64,000 nt of DNA from Corynespora cassiicola (taxonomy: Eukaryota; Ascomycota; Dothideomycetes; Pleosporales; Corynesporascaceae), in assembly GCA_022059125.1 (NCBI GenBank), contig JAEUWY010000001.1, positions 4,526,001 through 4,590,000 of the forward strand, in the 5' to 3' direction. Under the pieces are notes generated by a model, which did no database searches, was not told the origin of the DNA, and was given only the letters and a program-made list of their open reading frames with translations. Below are positions 3,954-58,238 of the stretch, piece after piece; the stretch's first letter is position 1, and the number at the start of each line of letters is the position of its first letter. A program made the position numbers and the translations under genes.

Positions 3954-5702
3954 ATTTACCTTGATTGCTTAATAGATACTATGCTGCATTTATATGCGCA
4001 ATTGAAAGTAAATCTCTAAGTAATTGGCGATAGTCTTTGTCGCTGGAATATGACGCGTAAGAGCACAGCAGATCTTGATGGAATTAAGTATTCACGTAGT
4101 GTGCAGCTTGCCAAATCTCTGAATAGTGAACAATAGACTAGTGATCAAGAATAGGGCAAAAGGCCATAATCAGGGATAGCGATCCCACTCGCCTTTATGT
4201 TTTCCTATAGCTTCTACCCAGCGGGTTGGACCTGTTTAGAATTAAGGGCGGGGAGAAAAGGAAAAGACTTAGATCAACTACAGTCCTCTCTTTAGCTCGG
4301 ATGTCTAGCGGTTCACAGCCTTTTTGAATCGGGAGAGTTAATTATAGAGCCGAAATAGTCGCTTCTGATCATTATAGGCCAGCAAATAATTTTGTAGAGC
4401 GAGCGTCGTGCGTGCGCTCTTTGTTGGGGTTGAGGAAACCCCACGATGTGGCTAGCGGAAACTAAACACGGATCATCGTCCATCATAGTTAAACCCAGGC
4501 AGACCGCTTTGAATGGAACTAACCAGAAGTCATTAATACTAGCCTTCTGAGTCAAATATGCTTGTTAAAAAGGGGGGAAGTACTTCGCCATCTTGTCTAA
4601 TATAGGCCGTGGTACCTAGCCTAATTCCACAGTCTTTTTCTGGCTGAGATGTCTGGTGTTTTTTTTATAGAAGCTACTTGATGCTTTTAGCTTTATAATC
4701 ACCTTTCCTAATACAAAAAATCTGTGTCCCGATAACTAAAAATCTAAGCCGGAAGGAAGGACTGTAGACCATGGACCTAGCGTTCCAGCAGCACACAGAA
4801 AAAAATGAGAATATTCTCATCAATTTTCTTCCGGCTGTTACACAACCAATCTGGCTGATGCCTAACATGTACATGGCCGGGTGTTAAGTTAGCCTAGCTG
4901 ACTCGAGCAAAATAAACATACGACAGTGGGTATTCGCTAGTAGTCACCCATCTAACTACTAATCTACTGGTACTGTGCTCAAGTACGCTTAAGTAAGCAT
5001 TTAATTTAGTTCTAAGTATAGGTTTTTCTGGAAACACACGGACGGGAAGGCTAGTATTTTCTCATCAGACCAACCTGGAGCCACCTTCAGTTTGCTGTTT
5101 ACGGATTCCCTAGAAAAGAACCTTCAAATCTACAAGTTTCAACCCTTATTTCCGTAAACAGGCTTTCGAACGTGGGCCGAGCGACCACAAAATGGCAGTG
5201 TGATACACGGTCCTTGCTTTACTTTCTCCCTTCCTGTCCTTCCGCCACCCCCAAACTCTCGCCCATTGCCTTCTCCCAGATTTATGTTTAGTTGAGACGC
5301 ACATAGGTATCTCTGGGTCATCAAATCAACGGCATAGGTTGATGAAGGACCAAATCGAATCATTTCTAGGGGCTGTATTTCGTGATAAGGCAACGAGGCT
5401 CATTTATTTCTTACCAAATAGGCAGCATTCGCGCTCCTGTAAGGTAACCAGAGTATCAGATCAGCCTCGAGGGGACAAGGTTGGTTTAGAAAGGGGGAGG
5501 CACAGCCTTGACTAACCAATTGTGGATGTTTCCAAGGAATCCTGCCACGACGCCAAGTTAAAGCGCGAAGGCAGCAGTAGACATTAAAAGGTAGATAGAC
5601 GAGCACCGAGATCTCTAATCACATCTCAGTTTTGTTTTATCCGCTGTCTCTTACAACTTCTTCTCATTGTCTTTGGTAATCTGGCTGAAGAATTCTGAGA
5701 AA
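3954..5702. other. AT-rich gene-free stretch with degraded elements
   Basis: No coding gene is supported. It contains the 5S rRNA relic at 4918-4990 and a short hairpin-like inverted repeat near 4424-4443 (GGGGTT...AACCCC). The stretch is probably a decayed repeat region upstream of the HET gene. Confidence 0.4.
4918..4990 (-). pseudogene. 5S rRNA relic (3' half, RIP-like mutations)
   Basis: Read on the minus strand, the segment resembles the 3' half of fungal 5S rRNA: a CGTACTTGAGC block, then TTAGTAGTTAGATGGGTGAC, then GACTACTAGCGAAT, ending in CTGTCGTATG and followed by a T-rich run. The usual fungal 5S has TTGGGTGGGTGACCACCAGCGAAT in this place. Several differences are CpA-to-TpA or the complementary TpG-to-TpA changes (ACCACCAG to ACTACTAG, TTGG to TTAG), the pattern expected of repeat-induced point mutation. 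The 5' half, with the rest of the internal promoter, is not recognisable in the AT-rich flank, so it is called a pseudogene rather than a functional 5S gene. Confidence 0.65.
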
Positions 5703-7775
5703 ATGACCAAAGTCACTAAGAGAGAGAGTGTGCATCCATCCCTCAGCAAAAGCCCAGTCCGACAAAGACGTGCCGATCAATACTGCGCGAGATGTCGTGT
5801 CTTGAACATCAAACAATGTTTTGAGAAGGAACCCAAAACTCGGTTGCACCTAAAGTCTCTCAGCATCCCCATATGCACTTTGGGTATCGTGCAAAAAAGC
5901 ATGCTGACTTCGCGTTGTCCACTCTGTCGTATGTTTGCCCAGCTTCTTCCAGGAAAGGGTATACAGAAAGAATACACGTTAAATGCATTCTCTGCCATCT
6001 CTTATCACTTCCCCCAACGATCCGAAAAGCGTATGCGCGATACAGTTGTTCTTTCGGTTGCTCCCGCAAAAGCCAGCTTATGGAAGGCGAGGTCGGCACA
6101 CAAATCCGGAGTCATCTACATTTTGGATGAGCAGAAACCTACAACCAAACAGGAAATATCCGGAAATTCGATTGACCCTCTCCGGGCAGATTACAAAATA
6201 GCCAGGAGCTGGGTTCACTACTGCAGAACGCATCATAAAGGGTATTGCAAGCTGCAAGGCCCTGCAAAAGAACATACAGTCGCAGGTTTCAAGTTGATCG
6301 ACTGTAAGACCCGCCGAATAGTTCCTGGCTCCCAAGAGTTCGAATACGTAGCTCTGAGTTATGTATGGGGAGAGAACTCTGCCCGTACAAGTATTCGATT
6401 ACTGCCAAACCCTGCGCCAAGAACAATCGAAGATGCGATAATTGCCACGACAAACCTTGGTTTCCGATATTTATGGATCGATCGCTATTGTATCTCTCAA
6501 ATGGATCCTTCCGAAAAACACCACCAGATTGCAAGGATGGATCGAATTTATGCAGACGCCATAGTCACGATTGTAGCCGCAGCCGGGGAGGGCCCACACT
6601 ATGGTCTACCAGGGGTTTCCAGAACGCACAGGTATCCTCAACCCAGTGCAGTGATTGGTAAACAACAGTTGGTATCATCACTTCGGTCACCACGAGATGT
6701 CATTATGTCTTCGAAGTGGGCCTCTCGTGGTTGGACCTTTCAGGAAGCGAAGCTTTCCCGACGGACAATATTCTTTACCGACGATCAAATATTGTTTGAA
6801 TGCGCATCTATGAGTTGCCAAGAGACAGTTAAAATGCCTTTAGAGGCTGCCCATCAGCATTGGAGTGGCAGCATGGGTCGTGAACATGATCCGATGCGTA
6901 TTTTCCCCCCAAACGGCCCTGGAAGGGCACCGTCCGATGTATTGAAAACTATCCGCGCCTATACCTTGCGTCATCTATCATATCCAGCCGATAACCTAAA
7001 CGGTATTCTCGGAATATTCAACAGCTTCAAACATGGCAAATCCACAGGTCAAGCCCGCTTAATCAAGGATTTGTCTTCGGGCGCCAATCTAAGCTTAGGC
7101 CTGCCAGGAGTTTTCCATCTCTGGGGGATTCCAATCATCTCAGACAAAAGTCATTGCGGGGATCGCTCACTTACAGACGAGTTTTGCCAAAAGCTCGTGT
7201 GGCGGAGCGAGTCGCCTTCAGTTCGGTCACTTGACCTCCCAAGTTGGTCATGGACTGGCTGGGTGCTTCCAATCAAACTATACTTTATTCCTGAATACTG
7301 GCCTGAAGTGACACGCAAATGCGTGAGGATTCGGCTACGTACTCGAACAGATAAGGTTGTCTCCATCCGCCGCTTATTGAAGCAATCGTATTATGAGGAT
7401 ATCATCCGACTTGGTTCACAAAGCTTGATTATTGAAGGTGCAATGTACCGTATGCAGTTTTTCCGGACCCAAAAAAAGCCATTCGATTTGAAACCAATCA
7501 TAGAAGATTGTAGTTCGACATTCTTCTGGCCGAACATCCAATTAGATACGGAAGAAAGTTTAAACCGCTTTGTTAGCCGTGCATGGGAAGTTATTATGGT
7601 TTGTTTTGATGGGATTGGGGCCAATATGTTAGTTTTAGACAAGAAAGGGAGTTTTTATGAGAGAGTTGGTGTTGTTGAGATACGCTGGGCAGGTTTGCGA
7701 CCGGACCTGAAACGGGTATCTAAATCGCTCAGCTCATTAGGCGAAGTATCTGTACGAACCATTGAACTGCGATAG
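5703..7775 (+). CDS. HET-domain (heterokaryon incompatibility) protein
   Basis: This is an intronless 690-residue protein with the HET domain (PF06985), the fungal module that triggers cell death in vegetative incompatibility. Visible signatures are YVALSYVWG near residue 214, LGFRYLWIDRYCI near 254, a block ending RIYADAIVTIVAAAGE, and SKWASRGWTFQEAKLSRR near 340. The N-terminal part has two CxxC motifs (YCARC, RCPLC), as often seen ahead of HET domains. I start at the first ATG of the frame (5703). In the second core motif the usual Cys-Ile-x-Gln is CISQ, as expected. The C-terminal about 300 residues have no recognised domain. It stands alone in an AT-rich segment beside orphan genes, typical of HET loci. 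Family assignment is firm; the biological specificity is unknown. Confidence 0.93.
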   Translation: MTKVTKRESVHPSLSKSPVRQRRADQYCARCRVLNIKQCFEKEPKTRLHLKSLSIPICTLGIVQKSMLTSRCPLCRMFAQLLPGKGIQKEYTLNAFSAISYHFPQRSEKRMRDTVVLSVAPAKASLWKARSAHKSGVIYILDEQKPTTKQEISGNSIDPLRADYKIARSWVHYCRTHHKGYCKLQGPAKEHTVAGFKLIDCKTRRIVPGSQEFEYVALSYVWGENSARTSIRLLPNPAPRTIEDAIIATTNLGFRYLWIDRYCISQMDPSEKHHQIARMDRIYADAIVTIVAAAGEGPHYGLPGVSRTHRYPQPSAVIGKQQLVSSLRSPRDVIMSSKWASRGWTFQEAKLSRRTIFFTDDQILFECASMSCQETVKMPLEAAHQHWSGSMGREHDPMRIFPPNGPGRAPSDVLKTIRAYTLRHLSYPADNLNGILGIFNSFKHGKSTGQARLIKDLSSGANLSLGLPGVFHLWGIPIISDKSHCGDRSLTDEFCQKLVWRSESPSVRSLDLPSWSWTGWVLPIKLYFIPEYWPEVTRKCVRIRLRTRTDKVVSIRRLLKQSYYEDIIRLGSQSLIIEGAMYRMQFFRTQKKPFDLKPIIEDCSSTFFWPNIQLDTEESLNRFVSRAWEVIMVCFDGIGANMLVLDKKGSFYERVGVVEIRWAGLRPDLKRVSKSLSSLGEVSVRTIELR

Positions 7776-37439: not shown

Positions 37440-38581
37440 ATGGCACCTTCCGCACGCTTCCATCTCAACTTCGTCGGGGATGTAATGTTAGGTCGTCTAA
37501 TCGACCAATTGCTCCCCAATCACGTCAAAAGCCCCGCAGAAGCTCAGCATGTGTCCAACTACGTCGGCACCGCCCTGGACCTGCAAAGATATGAGAAAGT
37601 TGTCTGCCTTCCACCCTGTTTTCAGGACTAACATCAATAAGCTTCAAATCGCCGTGGGGCAACTCGCTGCCCCTCTTTCGTTCTGCAAACCTCAACTTGA
37701 TCAACCTCGAGACTGCAGTCACAACTTGCGCGAAGCCATGGCCTGGAAAGACGTTTAGTTACCGGATGCATCCCGCCAATCTTCAATGCTTGAGAGAGGC
37801 ACATATTGACTATATCTCGCTCGCCAACAACCACACCCTGGACTATGGGGAAGAAGGATTACTGGAGACTGTAAAAATGCTGAAGGGGTCCAATATACCT
37901 TTTGCAGGCGCGGGAGTCTCTCCTGAAGAGGCACAACAACCTGCCGTCCTGGGATTAAAGGACGAGGGCAAAAACTATTCAGTATATGTATATTCTTGCG
38001 CTGACCATCCTACCGAGTGGTTCAATGTACCCAATCTCCACTCTATCGACTACTCGTCGGCCACGCGCGAGCGGCTGAAACAGCTGCTCATGTCGAATGC
38101 AATCAAGCCTGACCTCAAAATATTCAGTGTCCACTGGGGACCGAACTATTCTTGGGCACCGTCAGATGACATCCGCAGCCTAGCGCACTTCCTAGTCGAC
38201 GAATGCGCCGTAGACATTGTCCACGGCCACTCTTCCCACCATGTCCAGGGCGTAGAAGTGTACAAGGGCAAGCTCATCATCTACGGCTGCGGAGACTTCG
38301 TCGACGATTATGCCCTACACGCGGAATATCGGAACGATTTGTCCGCCGTGTGGAGAGTAGGGGTCGAGGCAAGCAACATTCCGGACGGATCAAGACTGCG
38401 CGTGACGCAACTTGAGATTTTTCCAAGCCGGATCAACCGTTTCCAGGCCAATTTGATCGGCAAAAATGACCCAGATCACTACTGGCTGAAGGAGACATTG
38501 CACCCGCTCTGCGAGGACTTGAATACCAAGATCCAAGAGGATCTGGGAAAAGATGATCAGATTATTGTCAAAGTCGTGTAG
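37440..38581 (+). pseudogene. CapA-family (PGA_cap) phosphoesterase-like, frame break near the 5' end
   Basis: This resembles the CapA/PgsA family (PF09587), a metallophosphatase-like fold named from bacterial poly-gamma-glutamate synthesis and present in many ascomycetes with unknown role. Part 1 (from 37440) reads NFVGDVMLGRLIDQLLP. Part 2 (frame open from 37595, clearly family-like from about 37650) reads SPWGNSLPLF, LINLETAVTT, DYISLANNHTLDYG, SVHWGPNY, VDIVHGHSSHHVQGVE and YGCGDFVDDY, including the conserved Asp, Asn-Asn-His and His-Gly-His-Ser-Ser-His positions. The two parts are in different frames; they overlap only at 37595-37628. The only intron-like candidate (37601-37643, GTTGTC...CAATAAG) has a length that does not restore frame. 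Either a one-base loss broke the gene, or splicing is unusual. Otherwise it would encode about 365 residues. Confidence 0.7.
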
Positions 38582-40267: not shown

Positions 40268-41450
40268 ATGTTCACCAAGGCTTTCATGGCAGCGGCCCTC
40301 GTCGGCCTGGCTGCATCCAGCCCCCTAAGGTCCCGCCAGACTCGCTCCAGCTCCAGCGAATTCTCCCAAGGAGGTTGCAAGCCCGTCATGTTCGCCTTCG
40401 CCCGCGGCTCCACCGAGATAGGAAATATGGTACGAATCCATCTTCATCCTCATCAGCATCACTACCTCCTCCTCAGTCCCTCCCTACTAACCCCCCAACC
40501 AGGGAACAATCGTCGGCCCCCAAACCTCCGACGGCCTCAAAGCAAACTTCGGTGCCGACCAAGTAGCCACCGAAGGCATCGAATACGCCGCCGCCCTCGC
40601 CCCCAACGCCCTCCCGGGCGGCACCGACGAAAAGAGCAAGCAATCCATGCAAGACACCCTCAACGCCATGGCCTCCCAATGCGCCGACTCGGTCATCGTA
40701 GCCGGAGGCTACAGCCAGGGAGCAGCCGTCTCGCACCGCGCCATCGAGTCCCTCGACCCCGCCGTGCAGGACCAAATCGCCGGCGTCATCCTCTACGGCG
40801 ACACGCAGAAGCAGCAGGACAACAACCAGATCCCGAATTTCCCGCAGGAGAAGACGATGATTATCTGTCAGCCGGGGGATTTGGTGTGTGTGGGGACGTT
40901 GACCATCTTGCCGGCGCATTTGACGTATGGGCAGCGGGCGGATGAGGGGGTGCAGTTTTTGACTACGCAGGTTCAGGGCGCCATGGCGAAGATTAAGGCG
41001 AGGAAGGTTAAGAGGGAGAGTGAGGATAGGGAGAAGAGGCAGGAAGAGGAGTTGAGGGAGCAGCAGGAGGAGCTGGCTGAGGAGGAGCAGGAACAGGCCG
41101 AGGAGGATCAGGAGCAGCAGGATGAGCAGCAAGATGGTGCTCAGGGGGTACAGGAGGAACAGCAGGAGGCGCAGAATGAGCAGCAGGAGGAGCAGCAGGA
41201 AGAGCTGGATGAACAGAAGGAGGAGGAACTGGAGGCGAGGGCTACCAAGAAGCCCAAGAAGACGGGCAGCGTCGGGCAGCTCAAGAGAGAGCCTGCTAAG
41301 AAGCCAAAGAAGACTGGTAGCGTCGGTCAATTGAAGAGGGAGGCCGCGAAGAAGAAGCCCAAGAAGACCGGTGGTGTCGGCCAGCTGAAGAGGGACACTA
41401 CCAACATGGGCTCTAGGATGGCGAGGACTGGTGTGAAAATCATGGCCTAG
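40268..41450 (+). CDS. Cutinase with Glu/Gln-rich tail and KR-bounded repeats
   Basis: A secreted serine esterase of the cutinase family (PF01083), 369 aa, two exons (40268-40429, 40503-41450; 73-nt intron with CTACTAAC branch). Signal peptide at residues 1-18 and a basic propeptide-like stretch (LRSRQTR). Catalytic residues: Ser125 in GGYSQG, Asp180 in PGDLVC, His193 in PAHLTY; four Cys (37, 114, 176, 183) fit the two family disulfides. A typical cutinase ends near residue 220. Here about 150 more residues follow: a Glu/Gln-rich coiled-coil-like block (226-297) and three tandem units of the form KKPKKTGSVGQLKR (303-316, 320-333, 337-351), separated by EPA and EAA. Each unit ends in Lys-Arg, and two more KR sites lie at 224-225 and 232-233. 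The tail resembles Kex2-processed repeat precursors; Glu-Pro and Glu-Ala after KR suit a Ste13-type trimming peptidase. That is inference. Confidence 0.93.
41247..41393 (+). repeat. Three-copy in-frame tandem repeat in the cutinase tail
   Basis: Three units of 48-54 bp encode KKPKKTGSVGQLKR with small changes (third copy GGVGQ and an extra Lys). The DNA copies differ mostly at third codon positions, so the peptide seems to be kept. Confidence 0.85.
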
Positions 41451-43538
41451 ATGGCTATTTCACTTTCTGTCGCTACAAAGGGGCTCGACATGTTTCCTCC
41501 CTTGAGGGGAGAGCGTATACACGGCCGGTGATGTCTATATCCTGTATCTGTATTTTTTTACGTATGCTTTATTTTCTTATTCTCAGTCATGGTTTTCTTT
41601 GGTCTCAATGTTAATCGTTTGACCGACTCGACGACAGGTCTCCACAGCCCCTATGGGATCGGCATCTATGGTTGACACTGACAGCGCTCTGACGGCCGAC
41701 AGTCAGCCACAAAGGAACCTTGCGAAAAGCAGCATTCTCGAACTCTAGCTGGCAATTAGAACGGCTGTCTTCGTCTGCGGCGTGTTTTAGAATTTGAAAT
41801 CCCGCAAGGCGGAGTTCTGAAGCGTCGGGCTCCGCCAAGCGTTTGTGTTGATGAAACACAGGGTGTGAGATGGTGCGGTGCGGTGAGCCACCAGCCTGTT
41901 TTGAACAGATTTCTAGATGGTGCAGAGGGGCGTGGCTTTCGTTGAATGCCGATATGACAGCGGAGTCTCCAACTGTGGGAGCTGTATAACGGACGTGGCG
42001 CCGCTGTCACCTGATCAAAGCTTCTAACAGTATCGTCTCATATTGACGTTGGGTTCCTTGTCATTAATTATTTTAATCTATCCTCTTATTAAAATTCGGG
42101 AATCAGGTACGATGTAGACTGTGATTGATTACACTGCTTCCCTCTTTTATCTACGCTGCTGGGTCCTCCGTGTAAAGATCCATTAGAAAAAAATTGGAGC
42201 AAGATTAGATGGTCTATCGCAGACGGGACCATACTGAGTCAACCCCCGAGGAGATGTTATTTATGAATTCAGTCTCACCATGGGTAAAGATACATGGATT
42301 GGTGTGGTGGGTCTTGGTTCAGTGCATTCTACTTCAACCGTTCCCGTACAGCACGTCACAGCGCTGCCACGTCTACGAGCCAACAAATCCTTTATAGCAA
42401 CTCACATTGAATATTCAAAGAACCGTGTGGATTGACATTATTTCAGACTGCCTCATGGCGCAATTAAAACCGTAGAATAGTACGCAGAAAACTCTCAACC
42501 TACGTAGCACGCAGAGCCCTACCGAAGACGTACAGGTATTTCTCTTCCCAAAAAAGCATTTATCACGACAATGTCAACTTGTGAAGAGTTATGAAAATTG
42601 TTAGCACTATGCCCTGTATTAATGCCAAGGAATATGGGGCGTCTGTGTGGCGAGTTTTTGCTTTTTCGATGCTCAGCCCGCAAGACCGATTTAGGTATGT
42701 GCCAAAAAGGGTATAGTATGGCGGGCCCAGATTCACCCGTGGGCTGACGACAACCTGCACCAGCAAGCAGTCCACCGCCTGTGCCACGCTGTGCTGGCTA
42801 CCATCACTAACTACTTATCTCAGCCCTCTTCGCTTCATGCTCGGCCAATTTTTTGAGGCCCGCCGCTTGCTTACTTCTCAGCTCACGAGGCGAGGGCGTC
42901 CCAAGGCTCGGCCCCACGGCTGAGGGTTCACTGCATTAGTCCTCTGCTTCTCCTCTTCTGAGCTGCAGCGGTACGACGGACTTCAATTTAGCCAGAGAGA
43001 AAAAAGATGTCTTGTGCTCTGGTCCGACGCTGTGCCTCGTCCCCGCAAGGAGTAATGAGTAACTAAAGGATTCCTCGCGATATCGCTGATCTCTGATTCT
43101 CGCGTTCTGCCGCGCCGAATCAACAGCTGGCGTAGTGGCTGATCTTGATGTCTTGGCTGCTCTGCATACCTGAGTCTGAGCAAATCAACGCCCTATATGA
43201 TCCATAATTAATTCTGGGACCGAACGCTGGCTCGCGGCTTATCCTACGGGACGCCCTTCGAGACTCCAGAACGCTGTGAGGAGCCGTCGCCCTCATACCG
43301 AATTTAGCATGGTCACCAAGACCCTTCGCTACGCCCCCGCATGAGACGCAGCCTCCCACGGCATGTTGCGGATGACAGCTTAGACTAGGGTGTCTAGTAC
43401 CAATGGGTGGACTCAGCCCGGGCATTGATCATCTTGCAAGGCAGCGTGAGACTTAAGTGCTGGCTGCCTCCACGGCCGCGCTGCGTTGGAGTTTTATTCT
43501 GCGCAACTGAAACCCAGCCTCGTGTACAGTTCACCTCC
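41451..43538. other. Intergenic region, 2.1 kb, no gene
   Basis: AT-rich in the middle (42040-42500). No frame with domain or splice support. It holds the 3' flank of the cutinase gene and the promoter of the kelch gene. Confidence 0.45.
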
Positions 43539-55005: not shown

Positions 55006-57216
55006 TCAAAGACTGAAGCTCTCGGTGTGGAGGTAGATGCCCTGAGCTCCAGTCCCCTTGTGCACGGCGCGCTCGTCGCTTAACGAGCATACCACCTGTT
55101 TTACATCTGCAACAAGCCCTTGGGGCCCGCAAACCACAACCGCAGATTCACCAAGCGCCTGCTCCAGCGACCTCCGAATGATGTCCTTCGGATTTGGTCG
55201 GCCTGAGAAGACGCCGATTGAAGGGTGGACTAAGAGTTTCGAATTGGGGCCAAACGAGGGTGCTGACGATGAGGTGGAATAAGGCCTGCTAGACGCATTG
55301 GATTTGTCTTTGGAGCTGCCGCAGCAACAGGGCGCCGTTGCGCCCGCGGTTGCCGGCTCGTTGACAGATGTTCTACAACAGCATGTCTGGTCTGGACCGC
55401 AGGTGGTAATTTCGTCCGGTGATAATGACGCAACATCCGTGACTTCTCTGACATCCTTCTCCTTCTCGGTATATTTGCCGGTTTCGTCGGAGGGCGAAAG
55501 TCGGTTTCGGAGCTCCGGGACACCGTGAGGAACTTCGTTAGGCGGCCTCCGGGCGGAGTTAAGATTTGGAGCTGTTATAGACGAGAGCAACGTTTTGCGC
55601 TCCTCTGTAAATGATTCGTCGCAGGTGATGTAGACAGTCAATTCTAGTTTGATGTCTTTGGCATTTTCTTCCAGTATTTGGAAATCGGACCAAACGGACG
55701 AAAGCTGAGAGGAAAGCCAACCTAGTTGCCCTCGACTTTTAACTACCCACACAAAACGTATGTGGCGAGTTGCCGACCCCTCTGGTGATTTGAAGAGTGA
55801 GGTTGTGTTTCGCGATGAGCTCGCATTCTCTTTCCAGCCCTGCACGAGGTCCCGAAGAAGTGGCATGGTGTAAGTAGCGCCGGTGCTGCCCGCAAGTAAA
55901 ACAACGCTATCGAACTGGCGCAAAGGTCTTAGACATCCATATGGGCCCTCTATGGTGACGATTCTGGTGCATGACGGTGATGATGCGGGGAGTCGGTGTG
56001 CTTTCTCGGCATGTCTGAAGAAGCGTTTCGTGCCGCCCGTTTCAGCCTTTACCAAGAATTCTAATTTCCCATCTGCTGGAATCGACGCAATGGTGAAGGG
56101 ATGGCTCTGCAGAGGAACGACCGAGTGGCATGAAAGAAAGACATGCTGTCCTGGAGTCCAGCTAATGGGAGGGTTGGGTATCTCGATTCGCGTCGTGTTA
56201 TGCGGGAGAGGCGTGAATTCAGCCTTGCATGCCCAGAAACTTGACAGGTCGCTCCTTTGCTGTTTCGGATGTAAGAAGGAAATGTTTGCGTACAGGAGCC
56301 GTAGAAGGCGCACGACGCGGTCGAACCAAAATAGTGCGACGGAAATCCAGATGTATATGTGTACCTCGGCTGGGGTGTGGATATACACGAAACCGACAAA
56401 GACAGCAAACGAGGCCACATGCTGCAGAACAAAAATCTCGTAGCACCAGCCCCGGATGGGTGTCATGGAGCTAAAGACGATCCAGACCAGCATGGCCCAT
56501 GCAACGACACCTTTCCAGACGATGGTATTCTGTTTGAGCTGTGTCCCGATGTAATCGTACGGTGCCCAATCAGCGAAGAAGTAACCCATGTGAAGAGTGG
56601 CGGTAAGAAGCATACACCTGGCGCACCAGCGATGCAGCCAATTGAGACGCTCGTAGCTGATACCGGACAGATATCCGATGATGTTATTTTTTGCGGCAAG
56701 GAGGAAGAGCAGGGGAATCTGAGCAATGGTGACGAATCCGCACCTAAACCCAATCTGTTCTCGTAACCATCGGTCGCCAAGGTCATAACCATATAAGCAT
56801 AAAACAATCAAGATGACGAGGTTGGCCATGATTAAGCTGGTCCGCCCCACAGTTGGGAACCGCATCATCCGCGATTTCATGGGAATGGTGATGGAGTAGT
56901 TGGATGCTTCTCGCATGAGGGCGTACAGGGTTGCATTCCAGAGGGAGAACCATGACTTGGGCTTCGCAGGCTGGGGTGATGCTGCATGTGCTGCAGATAG
57001 CCTGAGGCAAAGAGTTAGTCGACCTTTCGGGGCTGAACAGCGAACAGATACCGACCTCTGCCTATATAACCCATGGTTATAGATATTCACGAGCGTGGCC
57101 ACGCCAACAGCGCTGCCCACGACGGCCCAGTAGTATTTTGGGAACTCTATGAGGGGCGGCAGTCCTCCCATGGACATGGAGCCCATGCCGCCCATGGAGG
57201 AGTGGTCATGGCTCAT
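55006..57216 (-). CDS. Ferric/cupric reductase (FRE-type transmembrane metalloreductase)
   Basis: A plasma-membrane flavocytochrome that reduces Fe3+ or Cu2+ with NADPH before uptake, 718 aa, two exons (57216-57056, 57001-55006). The 54-nt intron (CGACTAAC branch, CTCAG) preserves frame; if retained it adds 18 residues. The N-terminus is Met/His-rich (MSHDHSSMGGMGSMSMGG), like the copper-binding ectodomain of CTR transporters. The TM heme core has the paired histidines in LNWLHRWCARCMLLTATLHMGYF and LQHVASFAVFVGFVYIHTP. The FAD motif is HPFTIAS and the NADPH motif is LLAGSTGATYTMPLLRDL, with a C-terminal VVCGPQGLVADVKQV. An insert in the NADPH domain carries two Cys clusters (CGPDQTCCCRTS and APCCCGSS). 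The CTR and BIM1-like genes follow on the other strand, supporting copper as substrate. Confidence 0.92.
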   Translation of the reverse strand: MSHDHSSMGGMGSMSMGGLPPLIEFPKYYWAVVGSAVGVATLVNIYNHGLYRQRSVSVRCSAPKGRLTLCLRLSAAHAASPQPAKPKSWFSLWNATLYALMREASNYSITIPMKSRMMRFPTVGRTSLIMANLVILIVLCLYGYDLGDRWLREQIGFRCGFVTIAQIPLLFLLAAKNNIIGYLSGISYERLNWLHRWCARCMLLTATLHMGYFFADWAPYDYIGTQLKQNTIVWKGVVAWAMLVWIVFSSMTPIRGWCYEIFVLQHVASFAVFVGFVYIHTPAEVHIYIWISVALFWFDRVVRLLRLLYANISFLHPKQQRSDLSSFWACKAEFTPLPHNTTRIEIPNPPISWTPGQHVFLSCHSVVPLQSHPFTIASIPADGKLEFLVKAETGGTKRFFRHAEKAHRLPASSPSCTRIVTIEGPYGCLRPLRQFDSVVLLAGSTGATYTMPLLRDLVQGWKENASSSRNTTSLFKSPEGSATRHIRFVWVVKSRGQLGWLSSQLSSVWSDFQILEENAKDIKLELTVYITCDESFTEERKTLLSSITAPNLNSARRPPNEVPHGVPELRNRLSPSDETGKYTEKEKDVREVTDVASLSPDEITTCGPDQTCCCRTSVNEPATAGATAPCCCGSSKDKSNASSRPYSTSSSAPSFGPNSKLLVHPSIGVFSGRPNPKDIIRRSLEQALGESAVVVCGPQGLVADVKQVVCSLSDERAVHKGTGAQGIYLHTESFSL

Positions 57217-58238
57217 GATGTCGGTCTTGATCGGGGTCTCGTTCTCGCAACGGGTAAAGTTAGTCCGCGTTTCTCAAGCTACCCGCCCCAGATGGCTACC
57301 ATACGACTGTCGGTAGTGTTTGGGCCCGGGATGCTGTCCATGTGCTGTGGGATACGCTGAGATGGGAGTCGGCAAGCAGTGCAGCAGTCGGTCGCAAGAT
57401 TGGGTGCAGCTCAGCAGAGGCGAGATATGTATGCGGGAGTCAACACAGCCCCATGGTGAGCAAGTTTCCAAGACGAAGATATCCCCAAGCGTCGTCGGCT
57501 GCCGTCTCATCCAGGGCCGGCACAGGATCTGGATAGAAGATGGTGTAAGAGAAACGCGCTCATGTCACGGCGAGCGAGGTAGTTGCACGGGGTGGCGGGC
57601 AAGAAATGCCGGGAGCGGCTCGCCTTGTGTACTACTGCACGACGGCAGAAGGATAGAGGTGTCCGCAGTGAATGGGGCCTGGCTGGGCGTGGCGCTGGGG
57701 GCGCTGGGGGCGGCGGCCAATCAAAACTTGCTCAACCAACAGCAAATCCCACCACCATGCCACCTTCCACCGTCCGCTGCGAGCCCGCCATGGACCGCCC
57801 GGTGGGAACAAGTCGAACTGGCCTCGGCCCTGCAGAGCAGAATGCAGCTGACTCGATTTCATTTTCTTGCCCACGGCGGCGATCTGCGCTGAGGCCGCAC
57901 AGTCCCACGACCCCGGCAGGCCGTCTGGCCATCCTTTACATTCCATGCTTCATCCCCGATCTTGTCATTTCTTGACTGTCGCGAGCACGTCCGCATTTGT
58001 ACGTCTACGACCGCAAATCTGCGCGTTCCCCAGATCCCGTCCCCTGTGCGTCAATGCTAAGCCGCTGTCTCCCTTTACAAGACCAGAGCCAAGCTGTGCA
58101 CCACCGTGGCACCGGGCCACCTATAAACCGTCCGCTCCCGTCATCAGTGGCACGACAGTCTGGCACTCACTCGCTCCCGCACCTAGCTTCGACCTCAACA
58201 ACACACCTTTCCAATCACACCTGCTCTAATTCCAAACA
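57217..58238. promoter_or_regulatory. Divergent promoter of metalloreductase and CTR, with GCTCA motifs
   Basis: About 1.0 kb between start codons. GCTCA (the core of the fungal Mac1/Cuf1-type copper element) occurs at 57409 and 57558, as CTTGCTCA at 57727-57734, and inverted (TGAGC) at 57457; a GCTGA is at 57356. About two GCTCA matches are expected by chance, so this is suggestive only. A TATAAA is at 58122-58127, 112 bp before the CTR start. Confidence 0.45.

Follow-up and report, generated by a model that had tools for sequence, protein, structure and literature searches.

A Corynespora cassiicola cutinase with a repeat-bearing tail as a candidate Kex2-type substrate

Gene model, cutinase domain and neighbouring genes

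The 64-kb stretch of Corynespora cassiicola DNA analyzed here (C1:4526001-4590000, the window) contains a cutinase gene at 40268-41450 on the forward strand, with two exons encoding 369 residues. Exon 1 (40268..40429, +; residues 1-54) provides a hydrophobic N-terminus, a short basic pro-segment and the start of the cutinase domain, and is separated by a 73-nt intron of the form GT...TACTAAC...CAG (40430..40502, +) from exon 2 (40503..41450, +; residues 55-369), which encodes the remaining cutinase domain, the tail and the stop. The gene model was made by hand. Its splice joint reads GNM|GTIVGP at a point where the relatives are unbroken, as in GNMGTVVGP of P0001, and the hydrophobic N-terminus resembles that of the relatives, the putative signal peptide being assigned by position.

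Cutinases are fungal enzymes that attack the waxy coat of plants. The Pfam Cutinase match spans residues 37-210 (156.2 bits against a cut-off of 25.9; E 1e-45), and the PDB yields 44 distinct sequences with matches at E <= 0.001, the best being cutinase 5x88 over residues 29-208. All the residues that the first-pass annotation had named in claiming a complete enzyme were located: the triad Ser125 (the GYSQG nucleophile, codon 40713..40715, +), Asp180 and His193, invariant in a 38-sequence alignment, and four cysteines at positions 37, 114, 176 and 183. As judged by these features, the gene encodes a CE5 cutinase with an intact triad.

Upstream of the cutinase lies an open reading frame of the poly-gamma-glutamate capsule synthesis type (PGA_cap; 37595-38581, +; E 1.6e-67). 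The window also holds a HET-domain (heterokaryon incompatibility) gene (5619-7775, +) and a ferric reductase with FAD and NAD domains (55006-57273, -). A 328-residue stop-to-stop open frame (40473-41459, -) runs antisense to exon 2; it probably arises from codon bias together with the Leu-rich complement of GAG/CAG.

Closest relatives

Relatives were taken as the best 120 of 314 matches, with scoring that covered the 7993 candidates sharing most words. The longest of the 120 has 312 residues and none is identical to the query; the best match listed, P0001 of Aaosphaeria arxii, has 77% identity over 62% of the query, and P0002 of Melanomma pulvis-pyrius 77% over 58%. Both species belong to the Pleosporales, while Zopfia rhizophila, a lower match, is placed in Dothideomycetes incertae sedis; the remaining named close matches we take to be mostly from Pleosporales. 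P0001 and P0002 share with the query the CE5 enzyme, a tail beginning KARxxKR and a hydrophobic tail end, but have neither the Glu/Gln block nor the repeat units that distinguish the query. In a tree of 75 cutinases, its bootstrap not quite settled, the smallest well-supported set around the query has 18 members (96/97), and 17 of 17 companions there have short tails without units and without a Glu/Gln block.

Organization of the tail

The tails of related cutinases were sampled from the first 65 listed relatives together with P0075 and P0093, two visibly tailed proteins from the other 55; P0038 and P0057 were left out for short tails, so that 65 of 67 were used, 64 of them distinct. These tails mostly begin KARxxKR, and a hydrophobic pair, for example Val-Ala, closes 27 of the 65. 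The start of the query tail, AMAKIKARKVKRESEDREKR (40980..41039, +; residues 214-233), resembles them and holds KR224-225 and KR232-233, the former standing at a column occupied by KR or RR in 51 of the 65 relatives. At the other end, the C-terminal remainder DTTNMGSRMARTGVKIMA (41394..41447, +; residues 352-369) closes with 11 residues, RMARTGVKIMA, whose mean BLOSUM62 score against the 65 tails is 9.2, a value reached in 2 of 2000 shuffles; other windows of the query tail score at most 2.5 by the same comparison. The likeness is closest for P0001 among twelve listed (KMAKKAVKIMA, 34); some relatives, such as P0008 (-14), show none. Counted from one residue beyond the KR pair, the relatives' tails have a median of 21 residues (range 5-34), against 143 in the query.

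Because the first ~20 and the last ~11 residues of the tail resemble the relatives' ordinary tail, the extra residues most likely represent an in-frame insertion inside a pre-existing tail. The terminal fusion originally claimed for this gene was thus not borne out, since the new residues lie between two ends that relatives already possess. The insert is absent from all 120 relatives listed. P0031 has the longest tail past the KR pair among the 65 relatives (34 residues), which is another hint that the cutinase tail tolerates insertions.

The same comparison bears on whether the tail is translated together with the enzyme at all. With a hand-made model, an error of gene model or assembly could in principle have joined the two; but a single open frame runs through to the relative-like C-terminal end, and the differences between the repeat units described below are nearly all synonymous, which makes such an artefact highly improbable.

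Dibasic pairs in the tails of related cutinases

Kex2-type proteases release fungal peptide hormones. At the column of KR224-225, 46 of the 65 relatives have KR, 5 have RR and none has KK or RK, and the 51 KR/RR pairs are followed by EA (28), DA (6) or AA (4) in 38 cases. In the central tail stretch, [KR]R pairs are enriched (70 against 45.2 ± 5.4 in shuffles) and [KR]K pairs depleted (31 against 68.4 ± 6.8), with [KR]R present in 58 of the 65 tails against 35.7 ± 3.9, these shuffles modelling neither helix nor shared ancestry; the other 7 tails have no KR or RR there. When whole tails were thinned to 43, 33, 21 and 17 unlike sequences, the observed [KR]R count was reached by 0 of 1000 shuffles each time, and KR or RR stood at the column in 30, 21, 11 and 10 tails, KK or RK in none. 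The [KR]K shortage fades with thinning: 21, 60, 253 and 175 of 1000 shuffles have counts as low. Neighbouring basic columns show almost the same degree of fixation (K in 61 and R in 2; R in 59 and K in 5).

The KARxxKR tail was not seen at eight other cutinase regions of the genome, taken as unspliced frames with cutinase-like motifs. Two other cutinase-family genes of the genome (L034 and L036) have S/T/N-rich stretches and a hydrophobic end, like wall- or GPI-anchored proteins. A reading of the relatives' tails as amphipathic helices was weak, the hydrophobic moment exceeding that of shuffles by more than 2 s.d. in just 15 of 65.

In the yeast α-factor precursor, KR is followed by EA or DA spacers (PMC6339444), and by analogy the KR-then-EA/DA column of the relatives reads as the α-factor layout. 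The α-factor precursor differs in containing no enzyme and in releasing the repeated pheromone as its peptide.

The Glu/Gln block and the repeat units

The insert contains a Glu/Gln block (41040..41234, +; residues 234-298; net charge about -28), built of imperfect GAG/CAG-rich repeats of 9-33 nt, of the sort that slippage makes. It is followed by a basic block of charge +18 carrying three units of consensus KKPKKTG[S/G]VGQLKR, which start at residues 303, 320 and 338: unit 1, KKPKKTGSVGQLKR (41247..41288, +; residues 303-316), followed by EPA; unit 2, again KKPKKTGSVGQLKR (41298..41339, +; residues 320-333), followed by EAA; and unit 3, KKPKKTGGVGQLKR (41352..41393, +; residues 338-351), in which Gly replaces Ser and which is followed by DTT. 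The conserved block stops exactly at KR in all three units, with variable residues at the following three positions. Three 14-mers alike within one mismatch occur in the tail, whereas even two were found in 0 of 300 shuffled tails, so that the Glu/Gln-rich block with three near-identical units ending in Lys-Arg stands as first described.

Units 1 and 2 have identical amino acids and differ at 8 of 42 nucleotides; units 1 and 3, like units 2 and 3, are 7 nucleotides and one amino acid apart. Nei-Gojobori estimates for the pair 1-2 and then the other pairs give pS of 0.79, 0.63 and 0.64 and pN of 0.03 each (Fisher P 1e-5, 2e-4 and 1e-4), in a comparison of 14 codons and three non-independent pairs. 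Since synonymous differences have accumulated while the amino acids stay nearly unchanged, these values point to an old duplication kept at the protein level, and the direction of the effect is plain.

These numbers weigh against the view that the tail is a largely idle expansion, produced by GAG/CAG slippage and tandem duplication and tolerated as low-complexity sequence where the end of a helix is uncritical. The repeat structure of the Glu/Gln block, the variable tail lengths of the relatives and the confinement of the insert to the query, among the relatives listed and the further proteins searched, all agree with this view, but the units have retained their amino acids, and the reading frame and the C-terminal residues past the insert are kept. 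We regard an idle tail as unlikely.

No protein with the units was found at E up to 10 among 425 + 584 word-sharing candidates (~203-645 and 60-190 residues long, the range 191-202 lying between the two sets, with shared exact five-residue words required), and in the 44.35-Mb, 23-contig genome the gene itself alone matched. As to cutinases with KR-repeat tails elsewhere, the search proposed with the first description, the units occur in none of the relatives listed, and the short tails of 51 of 65 have KR or RR at one column. An origin of the units from the tail's own end was considered as a candidate, on the likeness of GSVKRVA in P0017 to GSVGQLKREA.

There is no KR ahead of unit 1, the sequence there being EELEARATKKPKK, so that KR stands on both sides of two units only. 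Cutting at KR would accordingly free two units and leave unit 1 on the Glu/Gln block, which restricts the multiple-copy release first envisaged.

Predicted structure of the tail

AlphaFold2, run on exon 2 with 37 relatives, gave a model of mean pLDDT 81.7 with a single helix over residues 191-300 and disorder beyond. In this model the Glu/Gln block prolongs the C-terminal helix, KR224-225 and KR232-233 lie within confidently predicted helix, and the three unit KR pairs lie in the region predicted to be disordered (pLDDT under 50), and for that reason should be accessible. P0001 is predicted to have one helix at residues 191-249.

The long helix with its disordered end keeps alive a different reading, in which the enzyme keeps its tail: the C-terminal helix, ~16 nm if straight, would hold out a disordered Lys-rich anchor for acidic plant or fungal surfaces, and the units would stay alike since each is a binding repeat. 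The predicted helices of the query and of P0001, the separation of the tail into an acidic and a basic block, and the KREAE sequence, which favours helix, fit such an arrangement. AlphaFold2, however, readily draws helices for Glu/Gln-rich stretches. Nor would a charge anchor give an obvious reason to keep TG[SG]VGQL or the order K-R, for the conserved units to stop precisely at KR, or for the relatives' tails to prefer KR and RR over KK and RK. We regard an uncut anchor as the main alternative, less probable than cutting of the tail.

Comparison with known precursor types

We compared the protein with the KEPs surveyed by Le Marquer et al. 2019 (PMC6339444, section 24), for which the criteria given there include a signal peptide, at least four KR/RR fragments, at least three similar fragments and repeats making up at least 15% of the protein. 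Cutting the query at KR/RR gives six fragments of 207, 8, 83, 17, 18 and 18 residues (signal = 18). Two of these are similar (17 and 18 residues, compared without FIMO), unit 1 forming the end of the 83-residue acidic fragment. The repeat share is 11.4 or 13.8% of 369 residues, for units of 14 or 17, or 14.5% of 351, below 15% although near the line. On this reckoning from sequence, the query works like a KEP in part, yet is not a KEP by the 15% rule. With KEPs (PMC6339444; Umemura 2020, PMC7329392) it shares near-identical KR-ending repeats behind a hydrophobic N-terminus and variable residues after KR, in part X-Ala or X-Pro; it differs in that the precursor is mostly enzyme, the repeats occupy 11-14% of its length, only two units are flanked by KR on each side, and the window contains no UstYa gene. 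Neither paper uses the word cutinase in its main text (0 occurrences).

The ustiloxin-type layout proposed initially was not upheld. UstYa (DUF3328) has 26 matches in the genome and none within the window, which speaks against a cyclic product of the ustiloxin type, and the units contain no Tyr, a residue described as common though not obligate in dikaritin cores (PMC7329392).

The closest parallel noted for Kex2-site repeats combined with a folded domain is Hum3 of Ustilago maydis, a single secreted precursor whose repeats, with putative Kex2 sites, are linked to a hydrophobin domain (PMC4617103). Hum3 differs from the query in coming from a basidiomycete, in having 17 amphipathic repeats of 31-36 residues ahead of the domain, and in that the domain is non-enzymatic (PMC4617103). 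The suggestion that an enzyme and a repeat peptide in one precursor would be a new architecture is thus narrowed by Hum3 as regards folded domains in general; for enzymes, the titles and abstract starts listed from the openly licensed PMC literature yielded none joined to Kex2-site repeats. The same titles and abstract starts yielded no cutinase with such a tail, and the term C-terminal occurs 0 times in a main text describing four Neostagonosporella sichuanensis cutinases (PMC12011716).

A Kex2-type reading of the tail

Based on these observations, we propose, with a probability of about 0.5, that the cutinase tail is a Kex2-type substrate to which the insert adds cationic repeat peptides. 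Kex2 would cut after the KR pairs of the tail, and Kex1- and Ste13-type peptidases would trim the peptide ends. The expected products are (i) a mature cutinase of ~21 kDa, (ii) an acidic fragment retaining unit 1, (iii) two free cationic peptides of ~13-16 residues, (EP)AKKPKKTGSVGQL and (EA)AKKKPKKTGGVGQL, and (iv) a small C-terminal peptide. Before cutting, the acidic block may offset the charge of the basic units; afterwards, the peptides would be freed next to the enzyme at the plant surface and would be able, through their charge, to bind acidic walls or membranes there. Any biological role for them is a guess, and we know of no recognised pheromone motif in the unit.

For the proprotein-convertase P domain the genome gave a single match, which is what a Kex2 gene would produce. 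Published descriptions of Kex2 place Arg at P1 and Lys at P2 and give a preference for aliphatic residues at P4 (PMC8528282); P4 in the query is Q in the units and K and R at the two upstream sites, rather than a favoured aliphatic residue. That KREAE also suits a salt-bridged helix counts against a Kex2 reading. The kexin-precursor layout first recognised is supported in part, in that KR closes the conserved block of all units, the units are conserved as protein and the relatives' tails are enriched in KR/RR, and is weakened by the repeat share and by the position of the upstream KR pairs in a helix. Ste13-type removal of X-Pro and X-Ala likewise fits EPA and EAA, but DTT is neither.

A wider proposal, which we consider rather doubtful, is that cutinases of Pleosporales and close kin are two-product precursors, in which Kex2 would cut at the conserved KR(E/D)A to free a helical tail peptide, so that each secreted enzyme molecule would come with one peptide, which the array multiplies here. 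For the Paraphoma match P0009 we compute 21.1 kDa to the KR and 23.7 kDa uncut. A review lists a 19.7-kDa cutinase for the Paraphoma-related strain B47-9 (PMC9603655); this figure was not counted as size evidence, since P0009 may be another gene.

Implications

If the tail remained uncut, the protein would be a cutinase with a long-helix anchor, a less surprising outcome, though one useful for enzyme engineering. If it is cut, a single gene would deliver, in fixed ratio, an enzyme acting on the plant surface together with a small cationic peptide, which would link the opening of the cuticle to a signalling peptide or a product used in defence. As the tail is common to related cutinases, the idea is testable in several named species.
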